64,000 bases of DNA from an uncultured Bacilli bacterium (GTDB lineage Bacteria; Bacillota_I; Bacilli_A; RF39; UBA660). The notes below the pieces were generated by a model, which ran no database searches, was not told the DNA's origin, and worked only from the letters and a program-made list of their open reading frames with translations. Shown piece after piece: positions 24,595 to 50,235 of this stretch. Numbering within the stretch: the first letter of the stretch is position 1; each line of letters starts with the position of its first letter. The position numbers and the translations under genes are program-made. Location: NCBI GenBank assembly GCA_944373145.1, contig CALWAL010000005.1, positions 1-64,000 of the forward strand, in the 5' to 3' direction.

Positions 24595-24618
24595 GAAGTA
24601 GTTAATTCTACTTCTTTT
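24595..24618 (+). terminator. Intrinsic terminator after mraY
   Basis: GAAGTAG-TTAATT-CTACTTC followed by TTTTT, directly after the stop. Confidence 0.85.
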
Positions 24619-24687
24619 TGTATACAATCTTTTTATTAGGGTATTTTAATAAAAAATGTATACAAATTAAAGGAAAATAGAGTTTAG

Positions 24688-24703
24688 GGGTAATATATTA
24701 CCC
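24688..24703. promoter_or_regulatory. Perfect 16-base palindrome upstream of fibre operon 1
   Basis: GGGTAATATATTACCC is fully symmetric and ends four bases before the -35 box at 24707, a typical position for an activator or repressor site. The regulator is unknown; the Xre-type gene at 31865 is one candidate. Confidence 0.55.
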
Positions 24704-24706
24704 TTC

Positions 24707-24735
24707 TTGTCGTATAACAGTGAAAAATGTATAAT
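24707..24735 (+). promoter_or_regulatory. Promoter of fibre operon 1
   Basis: TTGTCG (24707-24712), 17 bases, TATAAT (24730-24735). Confidence 0.6.
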
Positions 24736-24754
24736 TTTACTAGGATAAGGTAGC

Positions 24755-27424
24755 GTGATTTATATGTGGAATAACATGGTAAATAAAACTAAAAATAAAG
24801 TAAAAATATTTATGCAAAATAAAAATAATAGGACTATTGTAACAATAGCCCTTATTATAGTGTGCTTTTTTGCATTTAATTTAAGTGGTTTATTAAGCAA
24901 TGTTTTTACAAGCCTAGCTAATTTATTTACTAATGTTGATGGTGAGATAAAAGAATTAGTTATTGAATCTGAAGGATACGACACTGAAGGTGGAAGTTAT
25001 AAAATTACCAAAAAAGGTAATTGGTCCAGTTCTACTGAAGTAGAGCTAGAATATGAATTAGAGTCTATAGCTGAGGATAATGGAGTTAATAAAGACGTTA
25101 TTTTAGTTCTAGATATCTCTAAGAGTATGGAAGGAACTAGGATTGATGAATTAAAATCATCAACATCGGATTTAGTAAAAACTTTATTGTCAAAAAATGA
25201 TAATAAAGTTGGTATAGTATCATTTAGTACGAGTGCTAAAGTAGAATCTAATTTGACAAATGATGAAACAGTTTTATTGAATGCTATTGAAGGGTTAACA
25301 CCGAGTGGAGACACTAGTTATTATCAAGCATTATTGAAATTGGAAGAATTATTAGTTGGTTATCAAGAAGAAGCTAATCGTGAATTAGTAGTAATATTTA
25401 TAACAGATGGATATCCAAATATTGATACATCAAATGAAAAAGCACAATATAAATTGTTAAAAGATAAGTATTCAGCGATGATAATATATGGAATTGGATT
25501 TGAAATAGATTCTTCTATGTCAGTTATTAAGAATATAAGTGACTATCAGTATTCAACAAGTAGCAATTTAAATTTAGATGAGATTTTAAAAGAAGCGGCA
25601 CTATCACCAGAGTATTATGAAACATTCCAAGTAGAAGAAACGATTAATAATGAATATTTTGATGTCAAAGAAGAAGATATTACAGTATCGATTGGTGATG
25701 CTGAAATAATAGAAGAAAATGGTGCTCAAAAAATAGTTTGGACATCTGATGGAGATGTTCGCTCAGGAAGTACGCAAAAAATGACAATAAAATTGACAGT
25801 AAAAGACGGTAAACAAAATACTGAAGGTTTGTGGAATATAAGTACATTGACAGAAGCAGATTTAATTTTATTAAATAAAGTATCACATCGTTTATCAAGT
25901 ACCGAAAGTTTAAAATTAAAATCAGGGTACAAAGTAAAATATGAAGCTAATGCCCCAGCAGGATGTAATGCTGAAATAGATTTAGAAGAAACACATTATG
26001 CATATGAAAATGTAAGACTTACGGCTCAAAATCTAGAGTGTGATGGCTATCAATTTGGTGGCTGGGAAGTAGTAGAGGAAGCATTAACTATAAATGATGA
26101 TGTATTCCAGATGCCGACATACAATGTAACAGTAAAAGGAATATGGAAACAGTTATCAATTGATAAAACAATGGATGGAGAAGTATATGAAAGATTAACA
26201 TTATATAAGGCAATTGCTAAACAAGCACAGTTAGATACCAATATTGACTTTAGTAAGGTTAATGGAACGACGAATGGAAATGGAGTATATACAGTAGAAT
26301 CAACTAAAGATGATACCAATCCAATTCATTATTTTAGAGGAAATGTAAATAACAATAATGTTATATTTGGAGGATATTGTTGGAAAATAGTGCGAACAAC
26401 GGAAACTGGTGGAATTAAAATAGTATATAATGGAACACCAGTAGGAGGCAAATGTACTAATACAACAGGAACAGCGACACAAATAGGTACATCAGCTTTT
26501 AATTCAAGTTATAATTCACCAGCATATGTAGGATATATGTATGGAACTGTATATTCGTATGGTAGAAAAACTTTTACGTCGGTTGACTCAGCAAATAATT
26601 ACTTATATGGAAATGATGTAACATATACTAATGGAGAGTATACTTTAGTAGATACAAAACAATTTTGGGATTGGTCAAATAATTATAATAAAATAAATGA
26701 TAATCATTATACGTGCTTTGCTACTGATGGAAAGTGCACGAGTGTATATTATATATATTATACAACTGATTCTTATGCACATTACATAACATTAAAAGAT
26801 GGAAAAAAAGTAGAAGATGCATTAGATGAGATGTTAAATAATAATATAACAGATTCCACAATAAAAACAGAAGTAGATAATTGGTATGCATCTAATATGA
26901 CTAGCTATACTAGTTATTTAGAAGATACAAAATGGTGTAATGATCGCTCAGTATATTATTTGGGAGGGTGGAATCCAAATGGTGGATTAACGAGTGACTA
27001 TTTAAGCTTTAACCCAAATGAACGTAGTATTAAAATATATAAACCATCATTAGAATGTAGAAATATAGATGCGTTTACATTAAATGTAGAAAGTGGTGGA
27101 ATAGCAGGATATGGAAATAATAAATTGGATTATCCAGTTGGATTATTGACTATTGATGAATTAATGTATGCAGGAGCAAGTGTCAATACTTACAATTCGA
27201 ATTATTATTTATATACTAATCAGTATTATTGGGTTATGTCGTCTTCGCATCTTGACATTAATAACGTAGGTGAATTTCTTGTATATCCTTCGGGAATTTT
27301 AAGAAACTTTGCAGTTGATTTTTTATACGGTGTACGCCCGGCAGTTTCACTAAAACCTGATACGGAATATACATCAGGAAATGGTACACCTGATAATCCA
27401 TATGTGATAAAAATAGAACAATAG
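24755..27424 (+). CDS. Membrane-anchored VWA surface protein, fibre operon 1
   Basis: 889 residues. A membrane segment at about 28-50 follows a basic N-terminus. The von Willebrand A domain (about 114-280) has a full metal-ion adhesion site: 'LDISKSM' (D120, S122, S124), the Thr in 'GDTSY', and the Asp in 'FITDGYPN'. Near 429 is an InlB_B-type 'GYQFGGW...MPTYNVTVKGIW' repeat. The C-terminal 400 residues contain Cys pairs in 'GYCWKIVRTT' and 'CRNID' and end 'RPAVSLKPD...NPYVIKIEQ'. GTG at 24755 is chosen for its AAGG spacing; ATG 24764 is possible. Likely the adhesive component of the locus. Confidence 0.75.
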   Translation: MIYMWNNMVNKTKNKVKIFMQNKNNRTIVTIALIIVCFFAFNLSGLLSNVFTSLANLFTNVDGEIKELVIESEGYDTEGGSYKITKKGNWSSSTEVELEYELESIAEDNGVNKDVILVLDISKSMEGTRIDELKSSTSDLVKTLLSKNDNKVGIVSFSTSAKVESNLTNDETVLLNAIEGLTPSGDTSYYQALLKLEELLVGYQEEANRELVVIFITDGYPNIDTSNEKAQYKLLKDKYSAMIIYGIGFEIDSSMSVIKNISDYQYSTSSNLNLDEILKEAALSPEYYETFQVEETINNEYFDVKEEDITVSIGDAEIIEENGAQKIVWTSDGDVRSGSTQKMTIKLTVKDGKQNTEGLWNISTLTEADLILLNKVSHRLSSTESLKLKSGYKVKYEANAPAGCNAEIDLEETHYAYENVRLTAQNLECDGYQFGGWEVVEEALTINDDVFQMPTYNVTVKGIWKQLSIDKTMDGEVYERLTLYKAIAKQAQLDTNIDFSKVNGTTNGNGVYTVESTKDDTNPIHYFRGNVNNNNVIFGGYCWKIVRTTETGGIKIVYNGTPVGGKCTNTTGTATQIGTSAFNSSYNSPAYVGYMYGTVYSYGRKTFTSVDSANNYLYGNDVTYTNGEYTLVDTKQFWDWSNNYNKINDNHYTCFATDGKCTSVYYIYYTTDSYAHYITLKDGKKVEDALDEMLNNNITDSTIKTEVDNWYASNMTSYTSYLEDTKWCNDRSVYYLGGWNPNGGLTSDYLSFNPNERSIKIYKPSLECRNIDAFTLNVESGGIAGYGNNKLDYPVGLLTIDELMYAGASVNTYNSNYYLYTNQYYWVMSSSHLDINNVGEFLVYPSGILRNFAVDFLYGVRPAVSLKPDTEYTSGNGTPDNPYVIKIEQ

Positions 27425-27441
27425 ACAGGAGGTAAAAGATA

Positions 27442-29418
27442 ATGAAAAAAGTAAAAATAAATAAAGTAAGAACATTAGGCCTCCTTCTTGTTGCTATATT
27501 AGTTATAACAATAACAGTAATAAGAGTAAGTGGCGTTGTAATTGAAAGTGGAACTCATGTTTTTGAGGATAGTGAGTTAACCTATTATGTTAATGTAACT
27601 TATGATGGCAAAGATGTAGAAGGTACACAGTCAAGTGATACTAAGATATCTGAAGTACAAAGTGGCTACATTTATGTTGAAGATAAGATACCGGAAGGAT
27701 TAATTTTTGAAGGTTTTGTTGAAACAGATGATGGAACAATAGGAGCTGTTGAGAGGGGTACCGGTGAGTCTTGTCAAGGACAAGTAATTGATGGTGTAGA
27801 TGGTTTAAACTATGATGAAGATACAAGAAAAGTAAGTTTTACGGTTAAAGATTTAAAAGCAGGGTGTGTATTAACCGTAGGTATTAAGACGAGAACGCCG
27901 GTCTTGGCTGCTGGTGTAAATAGAATGGATTTCTATAATACAGCAATAGCAGTAGAAGATACAGAAACAGTCCAGTCAAACACAGTTCATGCATGGATAG
28001 GATTAGAAGAATCAGAAGAAGAAACAAAATATAATGTAGTATATCAATATACAGGAACAGTACCAGATAACGCAACAACATTGCCAAGTACGAAAGAGTA
28101 TGTTGAAGGATCAACAGTAGGTATTGAAGGAAACGCTAATGCGGTTGGCTATACATTCTCTGGATGGACAACAAATGATGTAACCGTGACAAATGGATCA
28201 TTTACAATGCCAAATAAGACGGTAACATTTACTGGTTCATTTATTGAGATACCAAAATATAATGTAACATATGAAATAATTGGTGATATGCCATTTGGTT
28301 ATGTAAAACCAGATAGCAAAAATTATTCTGAAGGAATGAGAATAACAATAGACAGTTTAAAAGAAGGAGATATCATCAATGGCTATAAATTCTTAGGATG
28401 GAAAGCTAGTGATGTTACAATTGATGCCGATAATGGTTTTTCAATGCCAGCTTCTAATGTAACAATAACCGGAAGTTTTGAAGAAGTAAAATATAATGTA
28501 AGTTATGCCTTCCAGGGAGCAACTCTTCCAAGTAACGCAGAAAGCTTATTACCAGCTACAGTTAGCTATAAGCCAGGTGAAGTAGTAAAATTAGCTGAAT
28601 ATCCAGAAGTAGAAGGATATCGTTTCTTAGGTTGGTATAAAGAAGATAACTTTATAATGCCAGAAGAAGATGTTGTGATATATGGTGAATGGGCAATTAA
28701 TCCAACGTTATTTACGCCAGATGTAACATATGAGATAGAAAATAATAAAGAATCATATCGTCCAGGAGAAACGGTAAGATATAAAATAACAGTAACAAAT
28801 AATGAAACATATCCAATTAATGATGTAGTTATTCAAGGACATACAACCAAGATGAGTTTTGTTGAGGGAGAAGGATATACATTATCATCAACAAGATTAG
28901 CTAAAATAGATACAATACCAGCTAAAGAGTCAGTAACGGTATATGAAGAATATATAGTTACGGAAAGTGATAATAGTACAATAACAAGCGAAATTGAATT
29001 AATAGGAGCTTTAGCTGATGGTAATTATGCACTTGATACAGAAGTGGATTATAAACGAAATCAAACAATAACAATTGCCTCAAAATTGAATTTATGTAAT
29101 ATGGTAACAGGAAGTGAAGGACAAAAATTATTCTTATTCCATATTACAGGATTAGATTATGACTCATGGGCAATTTTAGAGAAAAATAGATGTAAAGAAA
29201 TATATCTATCACCAGGAACTTATAGTATAAGAGAAGTAGTACCACAAGATTATGCTTTAAATAGTGTAACCGGTGATATGACGAGTAATGGAGGAACATT
29301 ACAAGTTGAATTGGGAAACAATTATGAAGTAACATTTAATAACAACTATGAGAAGAAACCATTCTATCAAATGCACGGACGATTAGAGAATATCATAAGA
29401 GAAGTGAGGGGAGAATGA
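27442..29418 (+). CDS. Secreted repeat protein (DUF11-like, InlB_B, SpaA-like), operon 1
   Basis: 658 residues. A signal peptide or anchor (1-35) is followed by a DUF11-like domain (about 36-190). Three InlB_B-type repeats begin near 197, 272 and 350 ('GYTFSGWTTNDVTVTNGSFTMP' type). A second DUF11-like domain lies at about 426-530, and a C-terminal prealbumin-like domain (549-640, 'LSPGTYSIREVVPQDY') resembles pilin SpaA. There is no LPXTG and no C-terminal membrane segment; it ends in a basic stretch. From about residue 501 it is identical to the second copy. RBS AGGAGG is nine bases upstream. Confidence 0.7.
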   Translation: MKKVKINKVRTLGLLLVAILVITITVIRVSGVVIESGTHVFEDSELTYYVNVTYDGKDVEGTQSSDTKISEVQSGYIYVEDKIPEGLIFEGFVETDDGTIGAVERGTGESCQGQVIDGVDGLNYDEDTRKVSFTVKDLKAGCVLTVGIKTRTPVLAAGVNRMDFYNTAIAVEDTETVQSNTVHAWIGLEESEEETKYNVVYQYTGTVPDNATTLPSTKEYVEGSTVGIEGNANAVGYTFSGWTTNDVTVTNGSFTMPNKTVTFTGSFIEIPKYNVTYEIIGDMPFGYVKPDSKNYSEGMRITIDSLKEGDIINGYKFLGWKASDVTIDADNGFSMPASNVTITGSFEEVKYNVSYAFQGATLPSNAESLLPATVSYKPGEVVKLAEYPEVEGYRFLGWYKEDNFIMPEEDVVIYGEWAINPTLFTPDVTYEIENNKESYRPGETVRYKITVTNNETYPINDVVIQGHTTKMSFVEGEGYTLSSTRLAKIDTIPAKESVTVYEEYIVTESDNSTITSEIELIGALADGNYALDTEVDYKRNQTITIASKLNLCNMVTGSEGQKLFLFHITGLDYDSWAILEKNRCKEIYLSPGTYSIREVVPQDYALNSVTGDMTSNGGTLQVELGNNYEVTFNNNYEKKPFYQMHGRLENIIREVRGE

Positions 29419-30011
29419 TGAATAAAGAAAAGTTTCATAATGTTTTGAAAATTATGAATAAAAATAAATCACTTATCTTCCTATTTCTTCTCTTTCCAAT
29501 GATTTCTATAGGAGGAACAATAGCGTATTATAATACAACACAGAGTTTAGAAAATACATTTACGACAGCTAATTATAATACCAAAATGAGTGAATACTTT
29601 CCTATAACCGAGTGGGATGAAGATAATACTTTGGATAAACAATTAACAATCAGCAATGAAGGAAGTGGAGGAGTATTACTAAGGTTTACATATAACGAAA
29701 TGTGGTATGAAAATGGAGATGTAGTTAATAACTTATATAATGGAGAAGAGATAGTAACCAAGAATTGGACGCAAGCATTCATTAATGATTTTGAGTATCA
29801 TGAAGGATGGTATTATTATAAAAAAGTATTAAATGCAGATGAGAGTGTAACAATATTAGATAGTGTTGTAAGGAATTATGATGTATATGATGAGACAAGT
29901 GAATATCATTTAGACTTTAATTATGAAGTATTACAAGTTGATAATAATGCATCAGAATATGTATGGGGATATGAAGCGGTAATAGAAGGAAGTAATGTAA
30001 CATGGAGATAA
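29415..30011 (+). CDS. TasA/camelysin-like secreted protein (198 aa), operon 1
   Basis: The N-terminal hydrophobic segment ends in 'GGTIAYYNTTQSLENTFTTANY', the pattern cleaved by SipW-type signal peptidases and shared by TasA, camelysin and BsaP. The mature part is a beta-rich domain of about 155 residues ('TISNEGSGGVLLRFTY'). It overlaps the repeat-protein stop by four bases and the signal peptidase start by ten, so all three are co-translated. Protein and DNA are identical to the copy at 37379. It may be a fibre anchor or initiator; the next TasA-like protein looks more like the main subunit. Confidence 0.75.
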   Translation: MMNKEKFHNVLKIMNKNKSLIFLFLLFPMISIGGTIAYYNTTQSLENTFTTANYNTKMSEYFPITEWDEDNTLDKQLTISNEGSGGVLLRFTYNEMWYENGDVVNNLYNGEEIVTKNWTQAFINDFEYHEGWYYYKKVLNADESVTILDSVVRNYDVYDETSEYHLDFNYEVLQVDNNASEYVWGYEAVIEGSNVTWR

Positions 30012-30517
30012 TAAGAAAAATAGTACACATTTTGGCATCCATCTGTTATGTAGCTATCATAATATATATATTAATATTGTTACCAATGATAATAGGGTAT
30101 AGACCATTAGTAGTATTATCAGGAAGTATGGAACCAAAATATAAAGTAGGAAGTGTAATATACTTTGAGAAAGATTTAGACATTAAAGAAGATGATATAA
30201 TCGTCTTTACAATGAGAGATGCAGAATATGTAACACATAGAGTAGTTAGAATAGATAATGGAAAATATATAACCAAGGGAGATGCGAATGAGTTTACAGA
30301 TCCCGAAAAAGTAGAACTACAAGCCATAAAAGGGAAAGCATTAGATTTTAATATACCAATAATAGGCTATTATATCTATTATGTAAATACCCATTTTTGG
30401 ATAATAGTAGTAATAGTATTAATATTAGTATCAGAGTTCTTATTATCAAATATAAGAGCTGTTGATAGAGAAGATGAAGTTGCTTTAGAGGGAGGAAGAA
30501 GGAAGTATGAAAAATAA
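30002..30517 (+). CDS. sipW: ER-type signal peptidase I (SipW-like), operon 1
   Basis: Membrane serine protease that releases TasA-like proteins. 171 residues with an N-terminal membrane segment (about 13-32), catalytic 'LSGSMEP' (Ser42), 'VTHRVVRI' (His79 in place of the Lys of ordinary bacterial enzymes, hence ER/SipW type), 'TKGDAN' (Asp94), and a C-terminal membrane segment (about 134-156). It overlaps the genes on both sides, which encode its likely substrates. Identical to 37966-38481. Confidence 0.9.
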   Translation: MEIIRKIVHILASICYVAIIIYILILLPMIIGYRPLVVLSGSMEPKYKVGSVIYFEKDLDIKEDDIIVFTMRDAEYVTHRVVRIDNGKYITKGDANEFTDPEKVELQAIKGKALDFNIPIIGYYIYYVNTHFWIIVVIVLILVSEFLLSNIRAVDREDEVALEGGRRKYEK

Positions 30518-31106
30518 AAAAGCACTAGTCGCTATAGCATTAGTAGCGCTAATTGGTGTAGTTGGCGGATCATGGGCATACTATACTAGTAATACAAAAT
30601 TTACAGGAGAATTTACAACCGGAACATATTCAACAAGTATAACAGAAGAATTTGAAAGTCCAGATAACTGGACGCCAGGTACAACCACAAAAAAGAAAAT
30701 TAATGTTGCAAATAGAGGAAGCGTACCAATTGTAACACGTGCTAAATATACAGAAAAGTGGGTATCTAGCAATGGTACGCAATTATCACTTGAAAGAAAT
30801 GGAAGAAGAGTAGCGCAATTTACAGTAGGATCAAAATGGATTAAAGCTACAGATGGTTGGTATTACTATGAAGATACTTTAACCGCACCAGAAGAAAGTC
30901 AAGATTTTATTAGTTCAGTAACTTTTGATAAAAATTTTGAATTACAAGAGGGTGTAGATATTCATTGTGAAACCAATACAACAGCAACTGGTCAAGAATC
31001 TGTATGTACAAGTTTAGATACAGGTTATGCAGGAGCTACGTATACTTTAGTTGTAACTATTGAAACAATTCAAGCTGATGCTGCTTGGAAATATACAAGA
31101 GCATAA
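30507..31106 (+). CDS. TasA-like fibre subunit (199 aa), operon 1
   Basis: Starts 'MKNKKALVAIALVALIGVVGGSWAYYT', a SipW-dependent signal peptide. The mature protein ('FTGEFTTGTYSTSITEEF', 'WTPGTTTKKKINVANRGSVPIVTRAKY') has the beta-sandwich pattern of TasA/BsaP-type subunits, which polymerise by strand exchange in known members. Cys residues in 'IHCETN' and 'SVCTSL' could form a disulfide. The start lies inside the end of the signal peptidase gene. It is close to both TasA-like genes of operon 2, especially the second. Confidence 0.8.
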   Translation: MKNKKALVAIALVALIGVVGGSWAYYTSNTKFTGEFTTGTYSTSITEEFESPDNWTPGTTTKKKINVANRGSVPIVTRAKYTEKWVSSNGTQLSLERNGRRVAQFTVGSKWIKATDGWYYYEDTLTAPEESQDFISSVTFDKNFELQEGVDIHCETNTTATGQESVCTSLDTGYAGATYTLVVTIETIQADAAWKYTRA

Positions 31107-31131
31107 TAAAGAGTAATAAGGAGGATGTGTC

Positions 31132-31797
31132 ATGAAAAAATTAATTGTAACCATAGTAATGCTTAGTATGTTAATTATGAATGTTGAAGCTATTGATAAT
31201 AAATTATATTTTGATGAAGAAAAAGGTCATTTGTATTATGATATGAAAGCATTTGATGGCGATGCTTTTATGACACATGATGAAATGAGTCCAGGAAAAG
31301 TTTATACGGACGAATTGGAAATAAAAAATGAATCTCAAAATGTTTATGATTTATATTTGAGAGTTAACTTGGTTGAACAAGATTTATTATCTGAAGAATT
31401 AGTAGAAAATATGTATATGGAAATATATGTTGATGATGAATTAGTATATGAAGGAGATGCTACTGGTACTGCTTATGATGAAAATGGAGTAGCTTATCAA
31501 AAACTTATTCCACTAGGTAATTATAAAGCAGGAGAAAGTAGAGAGTTGGTTTTAAAGACAAAAATTAAAGATGAATATGCCAATACTGAAAATACAAATA
31601 TCGGATCATTAGAATGGGAATTTTTTGCCGGATATGAAAATGGTATTCAACCAATTGTAGCTAGACCAAATGGCGGCTTTCAATATAAAGTTATTATTTT
31701 AACAATTATAGCAATTGTATTAGCTCTATTAGTCGTACTTATATATCGAAAGAAATATGGAGTTAAAAAAAGTAGAATGAGAAAAGTTAATGAGTAG
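31132..31797 (+). CDS. C-terminally anchored membrane protein, operon 1
   Basis: 221 residues. Signal peptide (1-20), extracellular beta-rich domain ('SPGKVYTDELEIKNESQNVYDLYLRV'), then a membrane segment (about 185-207) and a basic tail 'YRKKYGVKKSRMRK'. 'RPNGG' lies just before the membrane segment but is not a proper sortase motif. The domain resembles TasA-like and WxL-type modules that cap or anchor polymers, so it may hold the fibre to the membrane. RBS AAGGAGG precedes it. Confidence 0.65.
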   Translation: MKKLIVTIVMLSMLIMNVEAIDNKLYFDEEKGHLYYDMKAFDGDAFMTHDEMSPGKVYTDELEIKNESQNVYDLYLRVNLVEQDLLSEELVENMYMEIYVDDELVYEGDATGTAYDENGVAYQKLIPLGNYKAGESRELVLKTKIKDEYANTENTNIGSLEWEFFAGYENGIQPIVARPNGGFQYKVIILTIIAIVLALLVVLIYRKKYGVKKSRMRKVNE

Positions 31798-31812
31798 TCA
31801 TTAACTTTTTTA
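31780..31812 (+). terminator. Terminator of fibre operon 1
   Basis: AAAGTTAATGA-GTAG-TCATTAACTTT overlaps the stop and runs into T residues. The same arrangement ends operon 2. Confidence 0.75.
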
Positions 31813-31823
31813 TTAATTTAATG

Positions 31824-31855
31824 AAAAAAGAGAATGAATTTTCATTCTCTTTTTT
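31824..31855. terminator. Bidirectional terminator between operon 1 and the Xre gene
   Basis: AGAGAATGAA/TTCATTCTCT with A and T runs on both flanks. Confidence 0.75.
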
Positions 31856-31864
31856 GTACCTTAT

Positions 31865-32086
31865 TTAGATGTCAAAATAATCATCGTCTTTAACTAGACT
31901 AATTAGTTCTCCTGGTGTGCAATCTAATAAAGTGCAAAAGTCTTCAATATATCTAAATGAAATAGAAGTTGTTTCTCCATTTATGATGCGGTTTAAATTC
32001 CTTGATGTAATATTCATGTGCTTTTTTAGATAATATTTCGACCTTTTCCTGCTTTTCAACAGTTCCTCAATATTAATCTTAATCAT
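31865..32086 (-). CDS. Small Xre-family HTH regulator
   Basis: 73 residues, a single Cro/C1-type helix-turn-helix ('NITSRNLNRIINGETTSISFRYIEDFCTLLDCTPGELISLV'). It lies on the minus strand between the two fibre operons and its start faces the promoter of operon 2 about 110 bases away. It is a candidate regulator of one or both operons. No sensor domain is present. Confidence 0.75.
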   Translation of the reverse strand: MIKINIEELLKSRKRSKYYLKKHMNITSRNLNRIINGETTSISFRYIEDFCTLLDCTPGELISLVKDDDYFDI

Positions 32087-32138
32087 ATAATCACTTCACT
32101 AATAAGAATACATTTTATGACAAAATAAAATAAGATAC

Positions 32139-32168
32139 TTGCAAATATCCTATAAAGTGTGATATTAT
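32139..32168 (+). promoter_or_regulatory. Promoter of fibre operon 2
   Basis: TTGCAA (32139-32144), 18 bases, TATTAT (32163-32168). The palindrome found before operon 1 is absent. Confidence 0.5.
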
Positions 32169-32196
32169 CTTTATAGTAGTAAAGGGTAGTGATAAC

Positions 32197-35100
32197 ATGT
32201 TCAATAATATTTTATCCAAAATAAAAGAAAAAATACAAAAGATTAATAAAAAAGTAAACTTAAAGAATATTGCCGTAATAGCCCTTATTATAGTGTGTTT
32301 TTTTGCGTTTAATTTAGGTGGTTTACTAAGCAATGTTTTTACGAGTATTACTAATTTAACCAATGAATTAGGTGAAATGAAAAAAATTGTTTTACAATCA
32401 CCTGGATATGAAGGACAAGAAGGAGGCAGCTATCAAATAACTAAGATCGTAAATTGGACAGCAGCTGATACAGCCTCTTTAGAATTTGATATTAAAACAA
32501 TAGCTGAAACTGAAGGATTTGAAAAAGATATAGTTTTCATACTTGACACATCAGCTAGCATGGAAGGAACAAGAATTGATACGCTTAAAGAAGCACTAAA
32601 AACAACTATTCCTACCATTTTAGAAAAGAATATTAATAATAAAATAGGTCTTATTAGATTCTCTTCTGATTCTACTATTTTAAATGAATTGACAAATGAT
32701 GAAGAGTCTTTAATTAATTCTATTGACTCACTTGAAGCAATAGGTGATACTAACTATTATAGTGCTTTTGTAAATTTAAGAAGTATGCTATCTGATTATC
32801 GAGAAGTTAGCGGACGAGAATTAGTAGTAGTTTTTGTAACTGACGGTGCACCAAATGTTTCTACACCAAATCAAAAATCTGAATATGCTTTATTTAAAGT
32901 TGAACATCCATATGCAACAGTTTATGGTGTACCATATTATTCAGGAATTAATAACACTATTTCTGAATTATCAGATGTAACTGATGAAGTTATTGGATAT
33001 AATGAATATTCAAGTTTAGCGGATCGTTTGATTAAAGCCTCTTTAATGCCCGAAGATTATGAAGAATTTACAATAAGTGAATATATTGATAGTGATTATT
33101 TTAATGTAACTACTAATGATATTAAAGTATCAATGGGAAATATAAAGATAACTAATGAAACTGGTTCTCAAAAAGTTACTTGGACAATTCCATCTGGTGA
33201 ATTTAAATCCGGTGATAGCCTATCAATGACAATTAATTTAAAAGTTCAAAGTGATAAATTAAGGAAGCCAGGTTTATATACTACAAGTACAAAAACTGAA
33301 GCTAGTTTAAAACTGCCTAGTAGTGAAGCTAAAACAATAAATAGTACTGAAGTTAATTCTCTACGTTCGGGTTATAACGTTATTTATGATGCAAATTCTC
33401 CGCAAGGTTGTAATGCTTCTTTTAACTTAACAGAAGTTAAATATGCTTTTGATACTGTTACTTTATCAAGTGAACAGCCAAGTTGTTCTGGTTATGAATT
33501 TAAAGGATGGCAAGTAGTTAGTGATGTACAAATGATTAATGACGATAACTTTATAATGCCAGATAATAATATTCAAATAAAAGGAACTTGGACACAATTA
33601 GCAATTAATAAAACAATGGAAGGCGATGTCTATGAAAAACTAACATTATATAAAACAATAGAAAGACAAGCTGTTCCTGACAATATAAAAAGTGAATATG
33701 TTACTTCGGTAACAGGTATTAATTTTAAAAGAGGTGCTAGTGATACAAATGGCAAAGGAGTATATACTGTGGCATCAACTTTAAATGATACTTATCCAGT
33801 ACACTATTTTAGAGGGGATATCGACAATAATCATGTATTATTTGGTGGATTTTGTTGGCGTATTATTAGAACAACTGATACTGGTGGTGTAAAACTGATA
33901 TATGATGGTAAGCCAACTACCGATGGTGTATGTAATAATACAGGTGTTAATACAGTCATAGATACTAATGGTGATGGAATTTTGAATTATAATGATGATG
34001 TTGATTATAATGTGTCTGGAGATGCTTCATATTTAACTGAAGTTGGATATATGTATAATCCAAATGCAATGTATGAAGAGGTAAAATTTAGAAGTCGTCC
34101 AAGAAAAGATATTGATATTCCAGTTAATAGAAAAACTAGCGTTACTAGTTCAAATTACTACTATAGTACTTTAATTTTATATAGAAATGGTAAGTATTCA
34201 TTAGTCAATCCAGTTCAAATGACATGGGAAAGTAATTATGACAAATTACCAGGATATTACACTTGCTTTAGTACATCTGCAACAGGTACTTGTACGAATA
34301 TTAATTATATATTAGAAGATTCTACTAGTACACAAGCTGTATACTTCTCATTATATGGAGGTGGAGGTATAAATGGTGCTGATACATATTATACCTTAGG
34401 AAAAGGATATACTAAAAATGCAAATGGTACTTATACATTAACTGATACCCAATCTGTATATTTAGCAGATTGGTATGATACTTATGACGATTACGAAGAT
34501 ATGTATATGTGTTCTGATCATTTAAGTACAACATGTAGTGAATTGTGGTTAATTAGTAGTACATTTAGCACAGATTTTTATGCTTATTCAACAACTGATA
34601 ATATAACTATGGGTAAGAGTTATACTTATAATGCAAACACTAAAAGATATACATTAACCAATTATGTAACTGGTAATATGGTGGAAAACCCTAATGCTGG
34701 TGGGCGTGCTTATGCTTATACTTGTGGAAGTACTTCAACTACTTGTTCAACATTATATATTATGACTTCTTATAATCGAGGAGAGTTTTCTGCTTATCAA
34801 GGTGTACCACTAACAAATGGTAAAAACATAACAGACTTACTGAATGAAATGTTATGGAGTAATCAATCTAACACGAGTAATTCAAATGCCAAAACAGTAG
34901 TAGATAATTGGTATAGAAATAATATGACTAATTATACAAAGTTTATTGAAGATACAATATATTGCAATGATCGAAGTATTTGTAATTTAGGTTATTGGAG
35001 AGAAGGAAGCGTAAACGATGATGATGTTGATTTTTGTGGTTATCAAAGAGAAATTGATGGGAAACCGGACTTATCATGTTCAAGCCAATTAGATTCATTT

Positions 35101-35394
35101 ACAGTTAGTTCTAGTTTAGGAAATGGTAAGTTGACGTATCCTTCTGCTTTGTTAACACATGATGAATATATATATAGCGGAGATTCTAATTCTTTTATTC
35201 AAACTGTCAATAGTTGGCAGATGACTCCTCACTATGCTCTTAGCGGTGATTTAGTTGGCGTTTATGATGGAAGCAACTCTACATGGCTTCATTTTTCTGA
35301 ATATATTCGCCCAGTAATTTCTCTAAAAAACGATATTGAATATAGTTATGGAAATGGAACATCAGAAAATCCATATGTAATAGCAGTGGATTAG
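32197..35394 (+). CDS. Membrane-anchored VWA surface protein, fibre operon 2
   Basis: 1,065 residues; a longer relative of the 24755 gene. Membrane segment at about 28-50, VWA domain with intact metal site ('LDTSASM', D117; 'GDTNYY'; 'FVTDGAPN'), InlB_B-like repeat ('GYEFKGW...MPDNNIQIKGTW'), then a Cys-bearing C-terminal region ('GFCWRIIRTT', ending 'RPVISLKND...NPYVIAVD'). About 170 extra residues contain Cys-Thr motifs such as 'CSDHLSTTCSELW' and 'CGSTSTTCSTLY' that repeat internally. The diverged sequence suggests a different ligand from copy 1. Confidence 0.75.
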   Translation: MFNNILSKIKEKIQKINKKVNLKNIAVIALIIVCFFAFNLGGLLSNVFTSITNLTNELGEMKKIVLQSPGYEGQEGGSYQITKIVNWTAADTASLEFDIKTIAETEGFEKDIVFILDTSASMEGTRIDTLKEALKTTIPTILEKNINNKIGLIRFSSDSTILNELTNDEESLINSIDSLEAIGDTNYYSAFVNLRSMLSDYREVSGRELVVVFVTDGAPNVSTPNQKSEYALFKVEHPYATVYGVPYYSGINNTISELSDVTDEVIGYNEYSSLADRLIKASLMPEDYEEFTISEYIDSDYFNVTTNDIKVSMGNIKITNETGSQKVTWTIPSGEFKSGDSLSMTINLKVQSDKLRKPGLYTTSTKTEASLKLPSSEAKTINSTEVNSLRSGYNVIYDANSPQGCNASFNLTEVKYAFDTVTLSSEQPSCSGYEFKGWQVVSDVQMINDDNFIMPDNNIQIKGTWTQLAINKTMEGDVYEKLTLYKTIERQAVPDNIKSEYVTSVTGINFKRGASDTNGKGVYTVASTLNDTYPVHYFRGDIDNNHVLFGGFCWRIIRTTDTGGVKLIYDGKPTTDGVCNNTGVNTVIDTNGDGILNYNDDVDYNVSGDASYLTEVGYMYNPNAMYEEVKFRSRPRKDIDIPVNRKTSVTSSNYYYSTLILYRNGKYSLVNPVQMTWESNYDKLPGYYTCFSTSATGTCTNINYILEDSTSTQAVYFSLYGGGGINGADTYYTLGKGYTKNANGTYTLTDTQSVYLADWYDTYDDYEDMYMCSDHLSTTCSELWLISSTFSTDFYAYSTTDNITMGKSYTYNANTKRYTLTNYVTGNMVENPNAGGRAYAYTCGSTSTTCSTLYIMTSYNRGEFSAYQGVPLTNGKNITDLLNEMLWSNQSNTSNSNAKTVVDNWYRNNMTNYTKFIEDTIYCNDRSICNLGYWREGSVNDDDVDFCGYQREIDGKPDLSCSSQLDSFTVSSSLGNGKLTYPSALLTHDEYIYSGDSNSFIQTVNSWQMTPHYALSGDLVGVYDGSNSTWLHFSEYIRPVISLKNDIEYSYGNGTSENPYVIAVD

Positions 35395-35414
35395 GATAGG
35401 AGGTAGATGTAAAA

Positions 35415-37382
35415 GTGAGAAAAGTAAAAATAGTAAGTCTACTTCTGGTTGTAGTTCTTTTGATAACTGTAGCGCTAAATCATCCAAAAGCAGATGAATT
35501 AGAGAATAGTACACAAGTATTTGAAGGAGATAAATTAACTTATTATATTAATGTTTATTATGATGGAAAAGATTATCATGGTATTCAATCAAGTGATACA
35601 GTAACAGCTGATATTGGTAGTGGATATATTTATGTAGAAGATAAGTTACCTGCTGGTTTAATTTTTGAAAGTTTTGTTAAGACAAGTGATGGAACAATAG
35701 GTGCTGTAAGCAGAAAAGATGGAACAGCGTGCCCAGGTAGTGTTGTGGGTGGTACAGACGGCTTAAAATATGATGAAGCTACCAATACGGTTACTTTTGA
35801 AATATCTAATTTACAGGCTGGATGTATGTTAACGGTAGGAATTAATACTAAAACACCATATTTAAGTAAGGAAGATACAAGAATGGATTTTTACAATACT
35901 GCATCAGCAACAGAAGGATTAATAACCGTCTTATCTAATACCGTTCATGTGTGGATTGGAACTGATGAAGCTGAGACTGTTACATTATATGATGTAGTAT
36001 ATAAATATACTGGTAATGTACCAGATAATGCTACAACAGTACCTACAACAGGTTCATATGCGGCCGGAAGCAGTGTGGGTGTAAGTGCAGATGGTCAAGC
36101 AGTAGGATATACATTCTCTGGATGGAAGACAAATGATGTTACAGTAACAAATGGAAGCTTCACAATGCCAAATAAGACGGTAACGTTTACAGGTTCCTTT
36201 ACACCTATTCCTACTTATACAGTAAGTTATCAAATAAGTGGAGATGTGCCTGATGGATATATATTACCAAGTACAAAAGAGTACTATGAAGGAATGAGAG
36301 TAACGTTAGATAATTTAAAAGCAGGCGATATCATCAATGGTTATAAATTCTTGGGATGGAAGGCTAGTGATGTTACAATTGATGCTGATAATGGTTTTGC
36401 AATGCCAGCTTCTAATGTAACAATAACGGGAAGTTTTGAAGAGATAAAATATAATGTAAGCTATGCTTTTGAAGGAACGACATTACCTGATGATGCAGAT
36501 AGTTTATTGCCAGCAACTGTAAGTTATAAACCGGGTGAAGTGGTAACGATTGCTGCTAATCCAGTTTCAACTATAAATGGTTATCGTTTTTTAGGCTGGT
36601 ATTCAGAGCCAACGTTTATAATGCCAGAAGAAGATGTTGTAATATATGGTGAATGGGCTTTAGATCCAACAAAATTTACATTAGGATTAACATATGATAT
36701 TGAAGATAAGAAAGATACATATCGGCCAGGAGAGACGGTAAGATATAAAATTACAGTAACAAATAATGAAAACTTTGAAATTAAAAATATTGTTATTAAA
36801 GGTGATAATGCTAAATTAAGTTTTGTTGAAGGTGAAGGATACACTTTATCATCAACAAGATTAGCAACGATTTCATCACTAGCTCCAAAAACAAGTGTAA
36901 CTATATATGAAGAATATATAGTTACGGAAAGTGATAATAGTACAATAACAAGCGAAATTGAATTAATAGGAGCTTTAGCTGATGGTAATTATGCACTTGA
37001 TACAGAAGTGGATTATAAACGAAATCAAACAATAACAATTGCCTCAAAATTGAATTTATGTAATATGGTAACAGGAAGTGAAGGACAAAAATTATTCTTA
37101 TTCCATATTACAGGATTAGATTATGACTCATGGGCAATTTTAGAGAAAAATAGATGTAAAGAAATATATCTATCACCAGGAACTTATAGTATAAGAGAAG
37201 TAGTACCACAAGATTATGCTTTAAATAGTGTAACCGGTGATATGACGAGTAATGGAGGAACATTACAAGTTGAATTGGGAAACAATTATGAAGTAACATT
37301 TAATAACAACTATGAGAAGAAACCATTCTATCAAATGCACGGACGATTAGAGAATATCATAAGAGAAGTGAGGGGAGAATGA
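35415..37382 (+). CDS. Secreted repeat protein (DUF11-like, InlB_B, SpaA-like), operon 2
   Basis: 655 residues with the same domain order as the 27442 protein. Signal peptide (1-28), DUF11-like domain, three InlB_B-type repeats, second DUF11-like domain, SpaA-like C-terminus. The first about 500 residues have diverged; the last about 158 are identical to copy 1 at protein and DNA level. It starts at a GTG with AGGAGG 11 bases upstream, a longer gap than usual; no nearer in-frame start is seen. Confidence 0.7.
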   Translation: MRKVKIVSLLLVVVLLITVALNHPKADELENSTQVFEGDKLTYYINVYYDGKDYHGIQSSDTVTADIGSGYIYVEDKLPAGLIFESFVKTSDGTIGAVSRKDGTACPGSVVGGTDGLKYDEATNTVTFEISNLQAGCMLTVGINTKTPYLSKEDTRMDFYNTASATEGLITVLSNTVHVWIGTDEAETVTLYDVVYKYTGNVPDNATTVPTTGSYAAGSSVGVSADGQAVGYTFSGWKTNDVTVTNGSFTMPNKTVTFTGSFTPIPTYTVSYQISGDVPDGYILPSTKEYYEGMRVTLDNLKAGDIINGYKFLGWKASDVTIDADNGFAMPASNVTITGSFEEIKYNVSYAFEGTTLPDDADSLLPATVSYKPGEVVTIAANPVSTINGYRFLGWYSEPTFIMPEEDVVIYGEWALDPTKFTLGLTYDIEDKKDTYRPGETVRYKITVTNNENFEIKNIVIKGDNAKLSFVEGEGYTLSSTRLATISSLAPKTSVTIYEEYIVTESDNSTITSEIELIGALADGNYALDTEVDYKRNQTITIASKLNLCNMVTGSEGQKLFLFHITGLDYDSWAILEKNRCKEIYLSPGTYSIREVVPQDYALNSVTGDMTSNGGTLQVELGNNYEVTFNNNYEKKPFYQMHGRLENIIREVRGE

Positions 37383-37975
37383 TGAATAAAGAAAAGTTTC
37401 ATAATGTTTTGAAAATTATGAATAAAAATAAATCACTTATCTTCCTATTTCTTCTCTTTCCAATGATTTCTATAGGAGGAACAATAGCGTATTATAATAC
37501 AACACAGAGTTTAGAAAATACATTTACGACAGCTAATTATAATACCAAAATGAGTGAATACTTTCCTATAACCGAGTGGGATGAAGATAATACTTTGGAT
37601 AAACAATTAACAATCAGCAATGAAGGAAGTGGAGGAGTATTACTAAGGTTTACATATAACGAAATGTGGTATGAAAATGGAGATGTAGTTAATAACTTAT
37701 ATAATGGAGAAGAGATAGTAACCAAGAATTGGACGCAAGCATTCATTAATGATTTTGAGTATCATGAAGGATGGTATTATTATAAAAAAGTATTAAATGC
37801 AGATGAGAGTGTAACAATATTAGATAGTGTTGTAAGGAATTATGATGTATATGATGAGACAAGTGAATATCATTTAGACTTTAATTATGAAGTATTACAA
37901 GTTGATAATAATGCATCAGAATATGTATGGGGATATGAAGCGGTAATAGAAGGAAGTAATGTAACATGGAGATAA
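37379..37975 (+). CDS. TasA/camelysin-like secreted protein (198 aa), operon 2
   Basis: Identical in protein and DNA to 29415-30011. SipW-type signal 'GGTIAYY', beta-rich mature domain. It overlaps the upstream stop by four bases and the signal peptidase start by ten. Confidence 0.75.
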   Translation: MMNKEKFHNVLKIMNKNKSLIFLFLLFPMISIGGTIAYYNTTQSLENTFTTANYNTKMSEYFPITEWDEDNTLDKQLTISNEGSGGVLLRFTYNEMWYENGDVVNNLYNGEEIVTKNWTQAFINDFEYHEGWYYYKKVLNADESVTILDSVVRNYDVYDETSEYHLDFNYEVLQVDNNASEYVWGYEAVIEGSNVTWR

Positions 37976-38481
37976 TAAGAAAAATAGTACACATTTTGGC
38001 ATCCATCTGTTATGTAGCTATCATAATATATATATTAATATTGTTACCAATGATAATAGGGTATAGACCATTAGTAGTATTATCAGGAAGTATGGAACCA
38101 AAATATAAAGTAGGAAGTGTAATATACTTTGAGAAAGATTTAGACATTAAAGAAGATGATATAATCGTCTTTACAATGAGAGATGCAGAATATGTAACAC
38201 ATAGAGTAGTTAGAATAGATAATGGAAAATATATAACCAAGGGAGATGCGAATGAGTTTACAGATCCCGAAAAAGTAGAACTACAAGCCATAAAAGGGAA
38301 AGCATTAGATTTTAATATACCAATAATAGGCTATTATATCTATTATGTAAATACCCATTTTTGGATAATAGTAGTAATAGTATTAATATTAGTATCAGAG
38401 TTCTTATTATCAAATATAAGAGCTGTTGATAGAGAAGATGAAGTTGCTTTAGAGGGAGGAAGAAGGAAGTATGAAAAATAA
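37966..38481 (+). CDS. sipW: ER-type signal peptidase I (SipW-like), operon 2
   Basis: Identical to 30002-30517, with the same Ser42/His79/Asp94 catalytic set and two membrane segments. In this operon it has three probable substrates: the 198-residue protein and two subunits of about 200 residues. Two identical copies of an enzyme that could act in trans suggest the repeat is kept by recombination rather than by need. Confidence 0.9.
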   Translation: MEIIRKIVHILASICYVAIIIYILILLPMIIGYRPLVVLSGSMEPKYKVGSVIYFEKDLDIKEDDIIVFTMRDAEYVTHRVVRIDNGKYITKGDANEFTDPEKVELQAIKGKALDFNIPIIGYYIYYVNTHFWIIVVIVLILVSEFLLSNIRAVDREDEVALEGGRRKYEK

Positions 38482-39076
38482 AAAAGCACTAGTCGCAATA
38501 GCATTAGTAGCGCTAATTGGTGTAGTTGGCGGATCATGGGCATACTACACAAGTCAAGCGTCATTTGATAATGATTTTACAACTGGAACATATGGAACAA
38601 GTATAACAGAAGAATTTGAAAGTCCAGATAATTGGACACCAGGAACAACTACAACAAAGAAAGTAAATGTTAGAAATAATGGAAGTGTTTCAATAGTAGC
38701 AAGAGCTAAATATACAGAAACATGGACAGCTGCAGATGGTTCAACAACATTAGATGGAGTAAGAGATGGTGAAAGAGTAGCGCAATTTACAGTAGGATCA
38801 AATTGGGAAAAAGCTACAGATGGATATTATTATTATAATGATGTATTAACAACAGGAGAAACAAGTACAGATTTTATAAGTTCAGTAACATTTAATCCAG
38901 ATTTTGAATTGGAAGAAGGAACAGATATTACATGTACAGAAAGTACACAAGGAAATAGAACAGAAAAAACTTGTACAAGTTTAAATACAGGATATGCAGG
39001 AGCTACATATAAATTAGTAGTAACAGTGGAGACAATTCAATCAGATGCAGCATGGCAACATACACCAGCAGCATAA
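38471..39076 (+). CDS. TasA-like fibre subunit A (201 aa), operon 2
   Basis: SipW-dependent signal identical in residues to operon 1 ('MKNKKALVAIALVALIGVVGG'). Mature part 'ASFDNDFTTGTYGTSITEEF...WTPGTTTTKKVNVRNNGSVSIVARAKY'. C-terminal half diverges ('DITCTESTQGNRTEKTCTSL') but keeps two Cys. The start overlaps the signal peptidase gene. Subunit B follows after 33 bases. Confidence 0.8.
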   Translation: MKNKKALVAIALVALIGVVGGSWAYYTSQASFDNDFTTGTYGTSITEEFESPDNWTPGTTTTKKVNVRNNGSVSIVARAKYTETWTAADGSTTLDGVRDGERVAQFTVGSNWEKATDGYYYYNDVLTTGETSTDFISSVTFNPDFELEEGTDITCTESTQGNRTEKTCTSLNTGYAGATYKLVVTVETIQSDAAWQHTPAA

Positions 39077-39109
39077 TAGATGATTAAGTAAAGGAAGGAG
39101 TAGAAAAAG

Positions 39110-39709
39110 ATGAAAAATAAAAAAGCCTTAGTTGCGATTTTATTAGTAGCATTAGTAGGGTTAGTTGGAACAACTATTGCTTATTATACAAGTAATGCAG
39201 TATTTACTAACCAATTTACATCAGGAACATATTCAACAAGTATAACAGAAGAATTTGAAAGTCCAGATAACTGGACACCAGGAACAACTACAAAGAAAAA
39301 GGTAAATGTTACCAATAATGGTAGTGTTGCTGTAGCAGCAAGAGCAACGTATACAGAAACATGGACAGCAGCAGATGGTTCAAGATTAGATGGTGTAAGA
39401 AATGGACAAAAAGTAGCACAATTTACGGTAGGTTCAAATTGGATTAAAGCAACCGACGGTTGGTACTATTACAATAAGAGTTTAACAACTGGTGAAGCTA
39501 GTACAGATTTTATTAGTTCAGTAACATTTAATAAAAATTTTGAATTATTAGAAGGTGAAGATATTCACTGTGAGACTCAAAAAACAGCTAATGGACAAGA
39601 GTCAGTATGTACAAGTTTAGAAACTGGATATGCAGGGGCTACTTATACATTAAAAATAACTGTTGAAACAATTCAAGCTGATGCGGCTTGGTCATATACA
39701 AGAGCATAA
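39110..39709 (+). CDS. TasA-like fibre subunit B (199 aa), operon 2
   Basis: Paralog of the gene just upstream, with the signal 'LVALVGLVGTTIAYYT'. Its C-terminal half and 3' flank are closer to the single subunit gene of operon 1 ('EDIHCETQKTANGQESVCTSL') than to its neighbour. This suggests that operon 2 gained an extra subunit by duplication or that operon 1 lost one. RBS GGAAGGAG is about ten bases upstream. Confidence 0.8.
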   Translation: MKNKKALVAILLVALVGLVGTTIAYYTSNAVFTNQFTSGTYSTSITEEFESPDNWTPGTTTKKKVNVTNNGSVAVAARATYTETWTAADGSRLDGVRNGQKVAQFTVGSNWIKATDGWYYYNKSLTTGEASTDFISSVTFNKNFELLEGEDIHCETQKTANGQESVCTSLETGYAGATYTLKITVETIQADAAWSYTRA

Positions 39710-39734
39710 TAAAGAGTAATAAGGAGGATGTGTC

Positions 39735-40403
39735 ATGAAGAAATTAATTACATTATTTGTAGTTATGTTTCTATTTATTATTGAGGTAGAAGCGGCTGAG
39801 AGTCAATTATATTTTAATGAAAAAAATGGAAAGTTATATTACGATGTAGATAAATTTGAATATAATTCATTTATGGCACATGATGGAATGAGTCCTGGTA
39901 AAGTCTATACGGATGAGCTAGAAATAAAAAATGAATCTGAAAATAAATATGATTTATACCTAAGAGTTAACTTAATTAGTCAAAGTATTTTAGCTGAAGA
40001 GTTAATTAATAGTTTGGAAATGGAAATATATGTTGACGATGAGTTATTTTATAAAGGGCCAGCGCATGGTACTGCATATGATGAAAATGGTGTTGCATTT
40101 CAAAGATTGATACCGATTGGCACGTATGAAGCAGGTGAAACGAAAAAATTGGTTGTTAAGACAAATATGAGTAAAGATTACAGTAATACCGAAAATCAAG
40201 AAATAGGAACACTAGGTTGGGAATTTTTTGCTGGATATGAATATGGAATTCAACCGATTGTGCCAGAACCAAATGGTGAGACACAAAGCCGAGTAATTAT
40301 TTTAGTAGCTGTAGCATTAGTTTTAACACTAGTAATTTATTTGGTATATAGACAAAAAACAGGATTAAATAAGAAAATGAGAATGAAAAAAGTTAATGAG
40401 TAA
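39735..40403 (+). CDS. C-terminally anchored membrane protein, operon 2
   Basis: 222-residue homolog of 31132-31797. Signal peptide (1-20), 'SPGKVYTDELEIKNESENKYDLYLRV', a membrane segment near 186-206 and a Lys/Arg tail. 'EPNGE' stands where operon 1 has 'RPNGG'. The probable role is membrane attachment or capping of the fibre; this is inferred from its constant last place in both operons. Confidence 0.65.
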   Translation: MKKLITLFVVMFLFIIEVEAAESQLYFNEKNGKLYYDVDKFEYNSFMAHDGMSPGKVYTDELEIKNESENKYDLYLRVNLISQSILAEELINSLEMEIYVDDELFYKGPAHGTAYDENGVAFQRLIPIGTYEAGETKKLVVKTNMSKDYSNTENQEIGTLGWEFFAGYEYGIQPIVPEPNGETQSRVIILVAVALVLTLVIYLVYRQKTGLNKKMRMKKVNE

Positions 40404-40420
40404 TCATTATCTTTTTTTTT
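40388..40420 (+). terminator. Terminator of fibre operon 2
   Basis: AGTTAATGA-GTAA-TCATTATCT (one mismatch) followed by a long T run. Confidence 0.65.
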
Positions 40421-40434
40421 ATTTAAAAACGTAG

Positions 40435-40440
40435 TATAAT
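40435..40440 (+). promoter_or_regulatory. -10 box of pyk
   Basis: TATAAT, 18 bases before the pyk ATG. The -35 region falls in the T-rich terminator tail. Confidence 0.45.
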
Positions 40441-40458
40441 GGATAATAGGTGAATAGT

Positions 40459-44544: not shown

Positions 44545-44919
44545 ATGGAGTTAATCGTTTGGCTAATTATGCTAGTGGTTATTTATTTATTTTATGAATT
44601 GTTTGTAATTCGCAAAGATAAAGCTTTGGAAAATATGAAAAGAGGTACAGAATTAACTTTATTAAAGCGAAAATACAAATTAGATTTGGGACGATTGTCA
44701 GTAAAAAAATTAGTCCGTGTAATTGGTATTACTAATGCTTTTATTATATCTACTGTTGTATCAATTGTTTGTTTATTGCAAGATTTTATTGAAAGTACCT
44801 TATTATGGATGTTAGCTGTTATCGGTGTTGGTATTGTTTTATTAATACCGTTAATTTTAATTTGTTATTCATTGATAGGAAAACATTATCAGAAAGTACA
44901 GGAGGGAAAAAATGTATAA
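44545..44919 (+). CDS. Small membrane protein ahead of leuS
   Basis: 124 residues with three hydrophobic segments (about 2-20, 61-80, 88-112) and a Lys-rich cytoplasmic loop. I do not recognise the family. It is the first gene under the leucine T-box and its last eight bases overlap leuS, so it is made with LeuRS when leucine is short. A link to leucine uptake or membrane response is possible but unsupported. Confidence 0.55.
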   Translation: MELIVWLIMLVVIYLFYELFVIRKDKALENMKRGTELTLLKRKYKLDLGRLSVKKLVRVIGITNAFIISTVVSIVCLLQDFIESTLLWMLAVIGVGIVLLIPLILICYSLIGKHYQKVQEGKNV

Positions 44920-49760: not shown

Positions 49761-50235
49761 ATATTTATTATCAACTATTATTTTCACTTTAAGTTGTATA
49801 GGTATTTATAACACTACCACTGAAGATTTAGAAAAATATGAAGCTTATTTAAAAATTCCTAGCTTAGCATTAGAACGACCTTTATATAATCGTCAAGATG
49901 TTCGCAGTGATATTGATAAAGAATTAATATTTATAGAAGCTAGTGATACACCATTAAAGAAAAAGGGTAATGTTATAATTGCCGGACATAGTGGCTCATC
50001 AACGGTTTCTTATTTTAAAAATTTGCACAAATTAACTGAAGGTGATTATATTTATTTAGAATATCATGGTATTATTTATAAGTATTGTGTTACCAAAAAA
50101 TATTATATAATGAAAACAGGGAAGGCGGAGATTAGAAGAGACGATACTGTAAATACATTAACTTTAATAACTTGTTTAGATGGTGATAGACAATTAATTG
50201 TAATTGCTAATATTGTAGATAAAATAAAAAAATAA
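49741..50235 (+). CDS. Sortase (class D-like)
   Basis: Membrane cysteine transpeptidase that links sorted proteins to the wall. 164 residues: N-terminal membrane segment (about 6-23), 'IIAGHSGSS' (His83), 'LTLITC' (Cys145) and 'DRQLIV' (Arg150). The short form and the TLxTC pattern fit class D more than class A. The start overlaps the adhesin gene, so this looks like a dedicated sortase for the VPDTM-type signal. Confidence 0.87.
   Translation: MIIEATKYLLSTIIFTLSCIGIYNTTTEDLEKYEAYLKIPSLALERPLYNRQDVRSDIDKELIFIEASDTPLKKKGNVIIAGHSGSSTVSYFKNLHKLTEGDYIYLEYHGIIYKYCVTKKYYIMKTGKAEIRRDDTVNTLTLITCLDGDRQLIVIANIVDKIKK

Follow-up and report, generated by a model that had tools for sequence, protein, structure and literature searches.

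The window analysed here is a 64,000-nucleotide stretch of contig CALWAL010000005.1 from an uncultured Bacilli bacterium, whose source assembly is a 1.29-Mb draft in 15 contigs (95% complete). Reading of its open frames showed that the interval between mraY, which ends at position 24594, and pyk, which starts at 40450, holds 13 operon genes and a small helix-turn-helix (HTH)-like gene. The operon genes form two tandem sets, in the order VWA1, SPA1, T198, SipW, TAS1, CAN1 for operon 1 and VWA2, SPA2, T198, SipW, TAS2, TAS3, CAN2 for operon 2. This is the arrangement that a first-pass annotation of the sequence had proposed: each of the 13 genes proved to be an open frame at the position given, and the overlaps it reported were found alike in both operons (SPA/T198, 4 bp; T198/SipW, 10 bp; SipW/TAS, 11 bp). 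In the congeners G136 and G159, murE, mraY, pyk and GH31 are contiguous, with gaps between mraY and pyk of 85 and 72 bp, respectively. Because mraY and pyk are directly adjacent in these genomes, which lack an insert at this site, the block of about 15.9 kb (24595-40449, no strand assigned) can be considered an island, either gained in the window genome or lost in the congeners. No integrase was seen within it, and a family search of three congeners gave no BsaA-family match. The first-pass annotation had mentioned neither the island nor the HTH-like gene and the identical tract described further below.

All operon genes lie on the forward strand. VWA1 (24755-27424) consists of an N-terminal hydrophobic segment, a VWA domain, an InlB-like repeat and a C-terminal adhesin module, and VWA2 (32197-35394) is a paralogue with 47% identity. 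The VWA domains of both proteins match PF00092/PF13519 with E values of 1e-12 to 4e-18, and the residues of the metal-ion-dependent adhesion site (MIDAS; DxSxS, T and D) are intact and conserved in the alignment. SPA1 (27442-29418) is a large secreted protein ending in a conserved C-terminal tail, and SPA2 (35415-37382, GTG start) is 74% identical to it, with an identical C-terminal part. The earlier description of SPA as DUF11/InlB/SpaA-like stands for its InlB repeats, to which SHIRT repeats can be added; the DUF11 match is only marginal, and the SpaA-like C-terminal domain was recognized by eye.

The signal peptidase and the TasA-like proteins fall into curated families, as had been claimed. 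SipW (30002-30517) matches the SipW/archaeal-type signal peptidase family TIGR02228 (E 2e-26) and has the invariant Ser42 and His79 of the endoplasmic reticulum (ER)-type enzymes in the alignment; the operon 2 copy (37966-38481) is identical. T198, a candidate TasA-like adaptor also present in two identical copies (29415-30011 and 37379-37975), scores 66 bits against TIGR04090, the 'BsaA family SipW-dependent biofilm matrix protein' (cut-off 60), an assignment that the alignment supports. The predicted fibre subunits TAS1 (30507-31106), TAS2 (38471-39076) and TAS3 (39110-39709) reach 131, 138 and 122 bits with the same model, and also pass the curated thresholds of Pfam PF12389 (camelysin) and of TIGR04088, the SipW-dependent signal peptide. 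By sequence, T198 and the TAS proteins are thus assigned to the BsaA family. None qualifies as B. subtilis TasA proper (NF046066), for which window proteins score at most 20 bits against a curated cut-off of 450; a search of PDB sequences with TAS and T198 profiles returned no relatives, and the T198-SipW-TAS DNA had no match in plasmids. In a Candidatus Stoquefichus metagenome-assembled genome (MAG), SipW and a TasA-like protein are joined in a single open reading frame (L203:9887-11071, L077:6081-7265).

The last gene of each operon, CAN1 (31132-31797) or its 62% identical paralogue CAN2 (39735-40403), has no sequence match in Pfam, NCBIfam or the PDB. An AlphaFold2 (AF2) model of CAN1, built with 35 sequences and having a predicted local distance difference test score (pLDDT) of 87.6, matched TasA best (5of2, Z 9.8, root-mean-square deviation 3.2 over 138 aligned residues; 5of1, Z 9.6), ahead of an archaeal bundling pilus (7ueg, Z 6.7) and of unrelated beta-sandwiches (Z 6.3 and below). 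With TasA as the best match, CAN is thus a protein of the TasA fold; it has a signal peptide at its N terminus and a membrane helix at its C terminus, and is a candidate fibre base. Its fusion to a TasA domain within one protein in Lachnospiraceae operons ties it physically to the fibre family. The check for a TasA fold that the first-pass annotation had set beforehand therefore came out in its favour, through the BsaA/TasA-like families for TAS and T198 and through the model for CAN; together with the signal peptidase and the subunit families, it places the locus among the SipW-dependent TasA/BsaA fibre systems. The CAN profile gave nothing that could be confirmed in viral contigs or in a first scan of genome contigs, and isolated, weak matches in G002, G241 and G703 were not counted.

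To gather relatives, we used the CAN profile and then scanned the named genomes for SipW. The full set, VWA gene included, was found in further genera of the same family, in rabbit gut and rumen MAGs (L132, L133, L134, L135 and L138), and a set of SPA, T198, SipW, TAS and CAN in L136 and L137. This passes the second check that had been set, on the co-occurrence of VWA and TasA-like genes, and because the order recurs in other genera it is not due to chance. VWA genes also accompany TasA-like and SipW genes more widely, in more distant Bacilli and in Lachnospiraceae; one such Bacilli genome (G421) has TAS, CAN, T198-like, VWA and SipW genes, also in tandem. The operons of Lachnospiraceae and related Clostridia (L139-L159 among others) encode, in this order, a surface protein of 900-2000 residues, a T198-like protein, two or three TAS proteins, SipW and usually a TasA-CAN fusion; carriers include Clostridium citroniae (L140), C. 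clostridioforme (L142) and Hespellia. Among 80 SipW loci, 71 have TasA-like genes, 53 have CAN and 52 have both, while a large protein is encoded directly upstream of a T198-like gene in 25. The giant proteins that were examined contain VWA, Cna_B, FctA or SpaA domains, or no known domain. Locus L061 retains the SPA C-terminus, T198 and CAN with neither SipW nor TAS adjoining, as expected if T198 links the cargo to the base. In other genera (G016 and G204), TasA domains are fused to adhesin modules related to those of the VWA proteins. The G016 genome has many dispersed genes in which a TasA-like domain is followed by differing large C-terminal modules (L036:9759-12881, L037, L038, L039, L041), as if each product served as a fibre subunit carrying a cargo of its own. 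Three Saccharibacteria loci (L176, L180 and L198) have SipW and CAN-like genes, and two of them TasA-like genes as well.

At the place where one would look for a sorting signal, the large protein encoded beside T198 terminates in a conserved tail of the form N-x-F-x4-F-F-H-x4-V-x-N, exemplified by NEFVKKGFLHSFGNVKN (L133) and NTFEHKDYFHSDYSVGN (L158). The pattern is found in 17 of the 25 loci with a large protein adjoining T198 and in only one of 447 other long open reading frames, which encodes an additional large protein in an operon of this kind. Since the pattern was written from the same sequences in which it was counted, a fairer test is the transfer of a profile built from close relatives only; its first further matches were the C-termini of Lachnospiraceae large proteins beside T198 (E 1e-4 to 0.14), ahead of noise. 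A chance resemblance was rejected on the basis of these counts and of the profile transfer. In L139 and L146, the VWA domain is located inside the tail-bearing protein itself. The tail is thus a candidate signal for docking of the cargo to T198.

In three of the relatives (L133, L134 and L138), a reverse transcriptase gene (PF00078, E 1e-18 to 2e-16) separates the VWA gene from the SPA gene, beside an adenine-specific pair of template and variable repeats, the hallmark of a diversity-generating retroelement (DGR). The variable repeat is formed by the VWA gene's 3' end, with the template copy downstream of it (L133:3657-3787/4093-4222; L134:3425-3552/3858-3987; L138:2124-2240/2530-2649), and 58 of the 62 mismatches fall at a template adenine (22/24, 19/20 and 17/18, respectively). 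The L133 and L134 loci are 99.24% identical over 11.6 kb, yet 40 of their 88 differences are concentrated in the terminal part of the VWA gene (bases 3400-3799). A similar arrangement is seen in G016 (L035:8882-12278, G016:C1), where a TasA-domain adhesin gene is followed by a template copy (7/7 mismatches at A) and then by a reverse transcriptase gene. In G204, the ends of TasA-domain adhesins are related to two template repeats of the same genome (L230, L232) that adjoin reverse transcriptase genes, the one at L232 being broken into two frames. An active DGR in the window itself was considered and rejected, as neither a reverse transcriptase nor a template repeat was found for its copies; the window thus represents a branch without a DGR, whereas elsewhere in this system the cargo tip is targeted by one.

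Taken together, these data make it likely that the island encodes two paralogous, cell-anchored surface fibres of the TasA/BsaA type that display large adhesins. BsaA of C. perfringens is SipW-dependent and forms filamentous polymers (PMC7395162), and TasA of B. subtilis polymerizes through an N-terminal donor strand (PMC9674648). By analogy, SipW would cleave the signal peptides of T198 and TAS, which are of the SipW type, as expected of its family, and the TAS proteins would polymerize outside the cell, each giving its N-terminal donor strand to the next subunit. CAN, with its modelled TasA fold and its C-terminal membrane helix, would be the base holding the fibre to the cell, and T198 a TasA-like adaptor that takes up SPA, probably via the SPA tail with which it is co-conserved. 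SPA and the VWA protein would be the exposed cargo, with the likely recognition surface at the end of the C-terminal module of the VWA protein, because it is exactly this end that the DGR rewrites in relatives.

A simpler explanation would be that the TAS proteins form only a TasA-like biofilm scaffold, and that VWA and SPA are co-transcribed, self-anchored proteins that are never part of a fibre. TasA and BsaA are indeed known as matrix scaffolds, most of the surveyed SipW/TasA operons have no VWA gene nearby, and VWA1 and VWA2 have their own N-terminal hydrophobic segment and lack the docking tail. We nevertheless consider this explanation rather unlikely, given that other genera have fusions of TasA domains with adhesin modules of the VWA-protein type, that the large protein beside T198 is marked by a conserved tail, and that the order of cargo and T198 is preserved even where TAS and SipW are missing. 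Several points do weigh against displayed adhesin fibres in the window. The N-terminal segment of VWA1 and VWA2 may hold these proteins in the membrane, away from the fibre; the model of the VWA C-terminal module had a pLDDT of 44 and was not interpreted; and the SPA tail of the window (NNNYEKKPFYQMHGRLENII), with FYQMHGRLEN in place of FLHSFGxVxN, is the most degenerate among close relatives. The window genome has no PF00078 match in its 95%-complete assembly, and the window has no template-like repeat, the 3' ends of its VWA genes being of normal base composition. The TasA fold of TAS and T198 is assigned by family, and we infer fibre formation, docking and adhesion, as well as the presentation of the VWA protein by a fibre that the first-pass annotation had proposed. 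That TAS and T198 might instead be secreted camelysin-like monomers, acting as proteases or signals with no fibre at all, is suggested by the Pfam name of PF12389, camelysin metallo-endopeptidase. This is very improbable, however, as the closest curated family, BsaA, polymerizes, CalY, the camelysin of B. cereus, forms filaments too (PMC13082335), and a dedicated, anchored TasA-fold base would serve no purpose for monomers.

We also weighed a sortase-built pilus, in which a sortase from another locus would covalently link CAN, SPA and VWA as pilins or anchors. The genome does hold sortases, the nearest of which (49741-50235) lies about 9 kb downstream, outside both operons; the consensus before the C-terminal helix of CAN is PKTGD, a PKTGD-like motif occurs in most CANs, and at L133/L059 the last bases of CAN are shared with a sortase gene. 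The earlier claim that sortase and LPXTG motifs are missing therefore applies to the two operons and not to the system as a whole. We found neither a cluster sortase nor LPXTG-type subunit signals in either operon: SPA, VWA and TAS have no LPXTG-like motif, and the window CANs have PNGG and PNGE at the PKTGD position, without the cleaved T, so that they are more likely held by the membrane helix alone. Moreover, the nearby sortase has a neighbouring substrate of its own (48681-50235 encodes a thioester/SpaA-domain surface protein ending in a PDT-type sorting signal, then the sortase), BsaA polymerizes without the sortase that neighbours it (PMC7395162), and in relatives the sortase may attach the base without building the fibre. 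A sortase-built pilus thus seems improbable. Still less credible is the idea that the tandem arrangement is partly an artefact of the draft assembly, which is raised by a 1593-bp tract that is 100% identical between the operons (28940-30532 and 36904-38496, both on the forward strand) in a 15-contig assembly. The tract spans the SPA C-terminus, T198, SipW and the start of TAS, and identity drops to about 65-85% over the few hundred bp flanking it. L132 and L107 independently show tandem repetition, however, and gene conversion accounts for the tract and is most likely what has kept it identical; the window copies would have been diversified by duplication while conversion held this part constant. 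Since VWA (47%) and CAN (62%) clearly differ between the operons, the two loci are real whatever the origin of the tract.

The closest described relative of the displayed fibres proposed here is the sipW-bsaABCRSD operon of C. perfringens (PMC7395162), which shares SipW, BsaA-family subunits above cut-off and secreted accessory genes. The view that the gene set was undescribed has to be amended in this respect; it holds for the reading as VWA cargo, adaptor and anchor, since the C. perfringens operon is described without VWA/SPA cargo, a T198 adaptor or a TasA-fold anchor, and the window lacks its adjacent two-component genes. Literature searches on SipW with VWA, Cna-B or adhesins found no description of the set. 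The tapA-sipW-tasA operon of B. subtilis (PMC9674648) likewise has SipW, TasA-fold subunits with SipW-type signal peptides and a small accessory subunit with a presumed role in fibre initiation and anchoring, but the window has no TapA family match and adds the TasA-fold membrane anchor CAN, the adaptor T198 and large cargo. The TasA-CalY-CapP system of B. cereus (PMC13082335) also forms TasA-type filaments independently of sortase and has a wall-bound accessory protein; CapP, however, is chaperone-like with a disordered C-domain, and large adhesin cargo is unreported. Another parallel is provided by the type V pili of Bacteroidales (work cited in PMC12632263), whose tip pilins are diversified by DGRs and whose VWA tip adhesins include Mfa5. 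They too are strand-exchange fibres of anchor, stalk and tip, as the fibre here would be, the window VWA domain is related in sequence to that of Mfa5 (PDB 6to1), and in relatives of the window locus a DGR hypermutates the end of the VWA protein. The subunit family is nevertheless unrelated, secretion is by SipW rather than by lipoprotein processing, the envelope is of the Gram-positive type and the window has no DGR. A Pfam search of window proteins detected none of the type V (FimA/Mfa) lipoprotein fimbrillin families, only the VWA domain resembling Mfa5. We know of no cargo proteins of the SPA/VWA kind in archaeal bundling pili or 0406 filaments. These structures (7ueg, 7pnb) are TasA-like donor-strand filaments to which the CAN1 model has weak matches (Z 6.7 and 5.8), but they are archaeal.

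The main role known for TasA and BsaA fibres is that of a biofilm scaffold. Here, a conserved operon encodes their subunits together with a putative base, adaptor and cargo. We tentatively raise the possibility, somewhat short of an even chance, that TasA-type donor-strand fibres are a general display platform of Gram-positive bacteria, with a TasA-fold anchor, a TAS shaft, a T198 adaptor and giant adhesins recruited by a conserved C-terminal tail instead of a sortase signal, and that in some members of the lineage a retroelement within the same operon hypermutates the tip of the cargo in situ, giving a self-evolving surface fibre. The DGR targets reveal a cargo surface under selection for binding changing partners and mirror, in an unrelated fibre, the DGR-diversified tip pilins of Bacteroides; a search of a collection of papers found none mentioning both TasA and DGRs. 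As the operon occurs in cultured gut Lachnospiraceae besides uncultured small-genome Bacilli, the idea is testable in strains that can be grown.

Some further features were noted. A hairpin followed by a T-run (31824-31855, forward strand), read in the sequence and absent from the scan list, is a possible terminator of operon 1, and the 73-residue HTH-like gene between the operons (31865-32086, reverse strand) appears by eye to be of the XRE type. Elsewhere in the same genome, a solitary TAS-like gene (L034:8676-9257, G000:C3), about 50% identical to TAS1-3, has no adjoining SipW or anchor gene. Further downstream in the window, 44912-47728 encodes a 938-residue leucyl-tRNA synthetase with an apparent Nudix-like insert (REIAEETGYDD) in its editing region.

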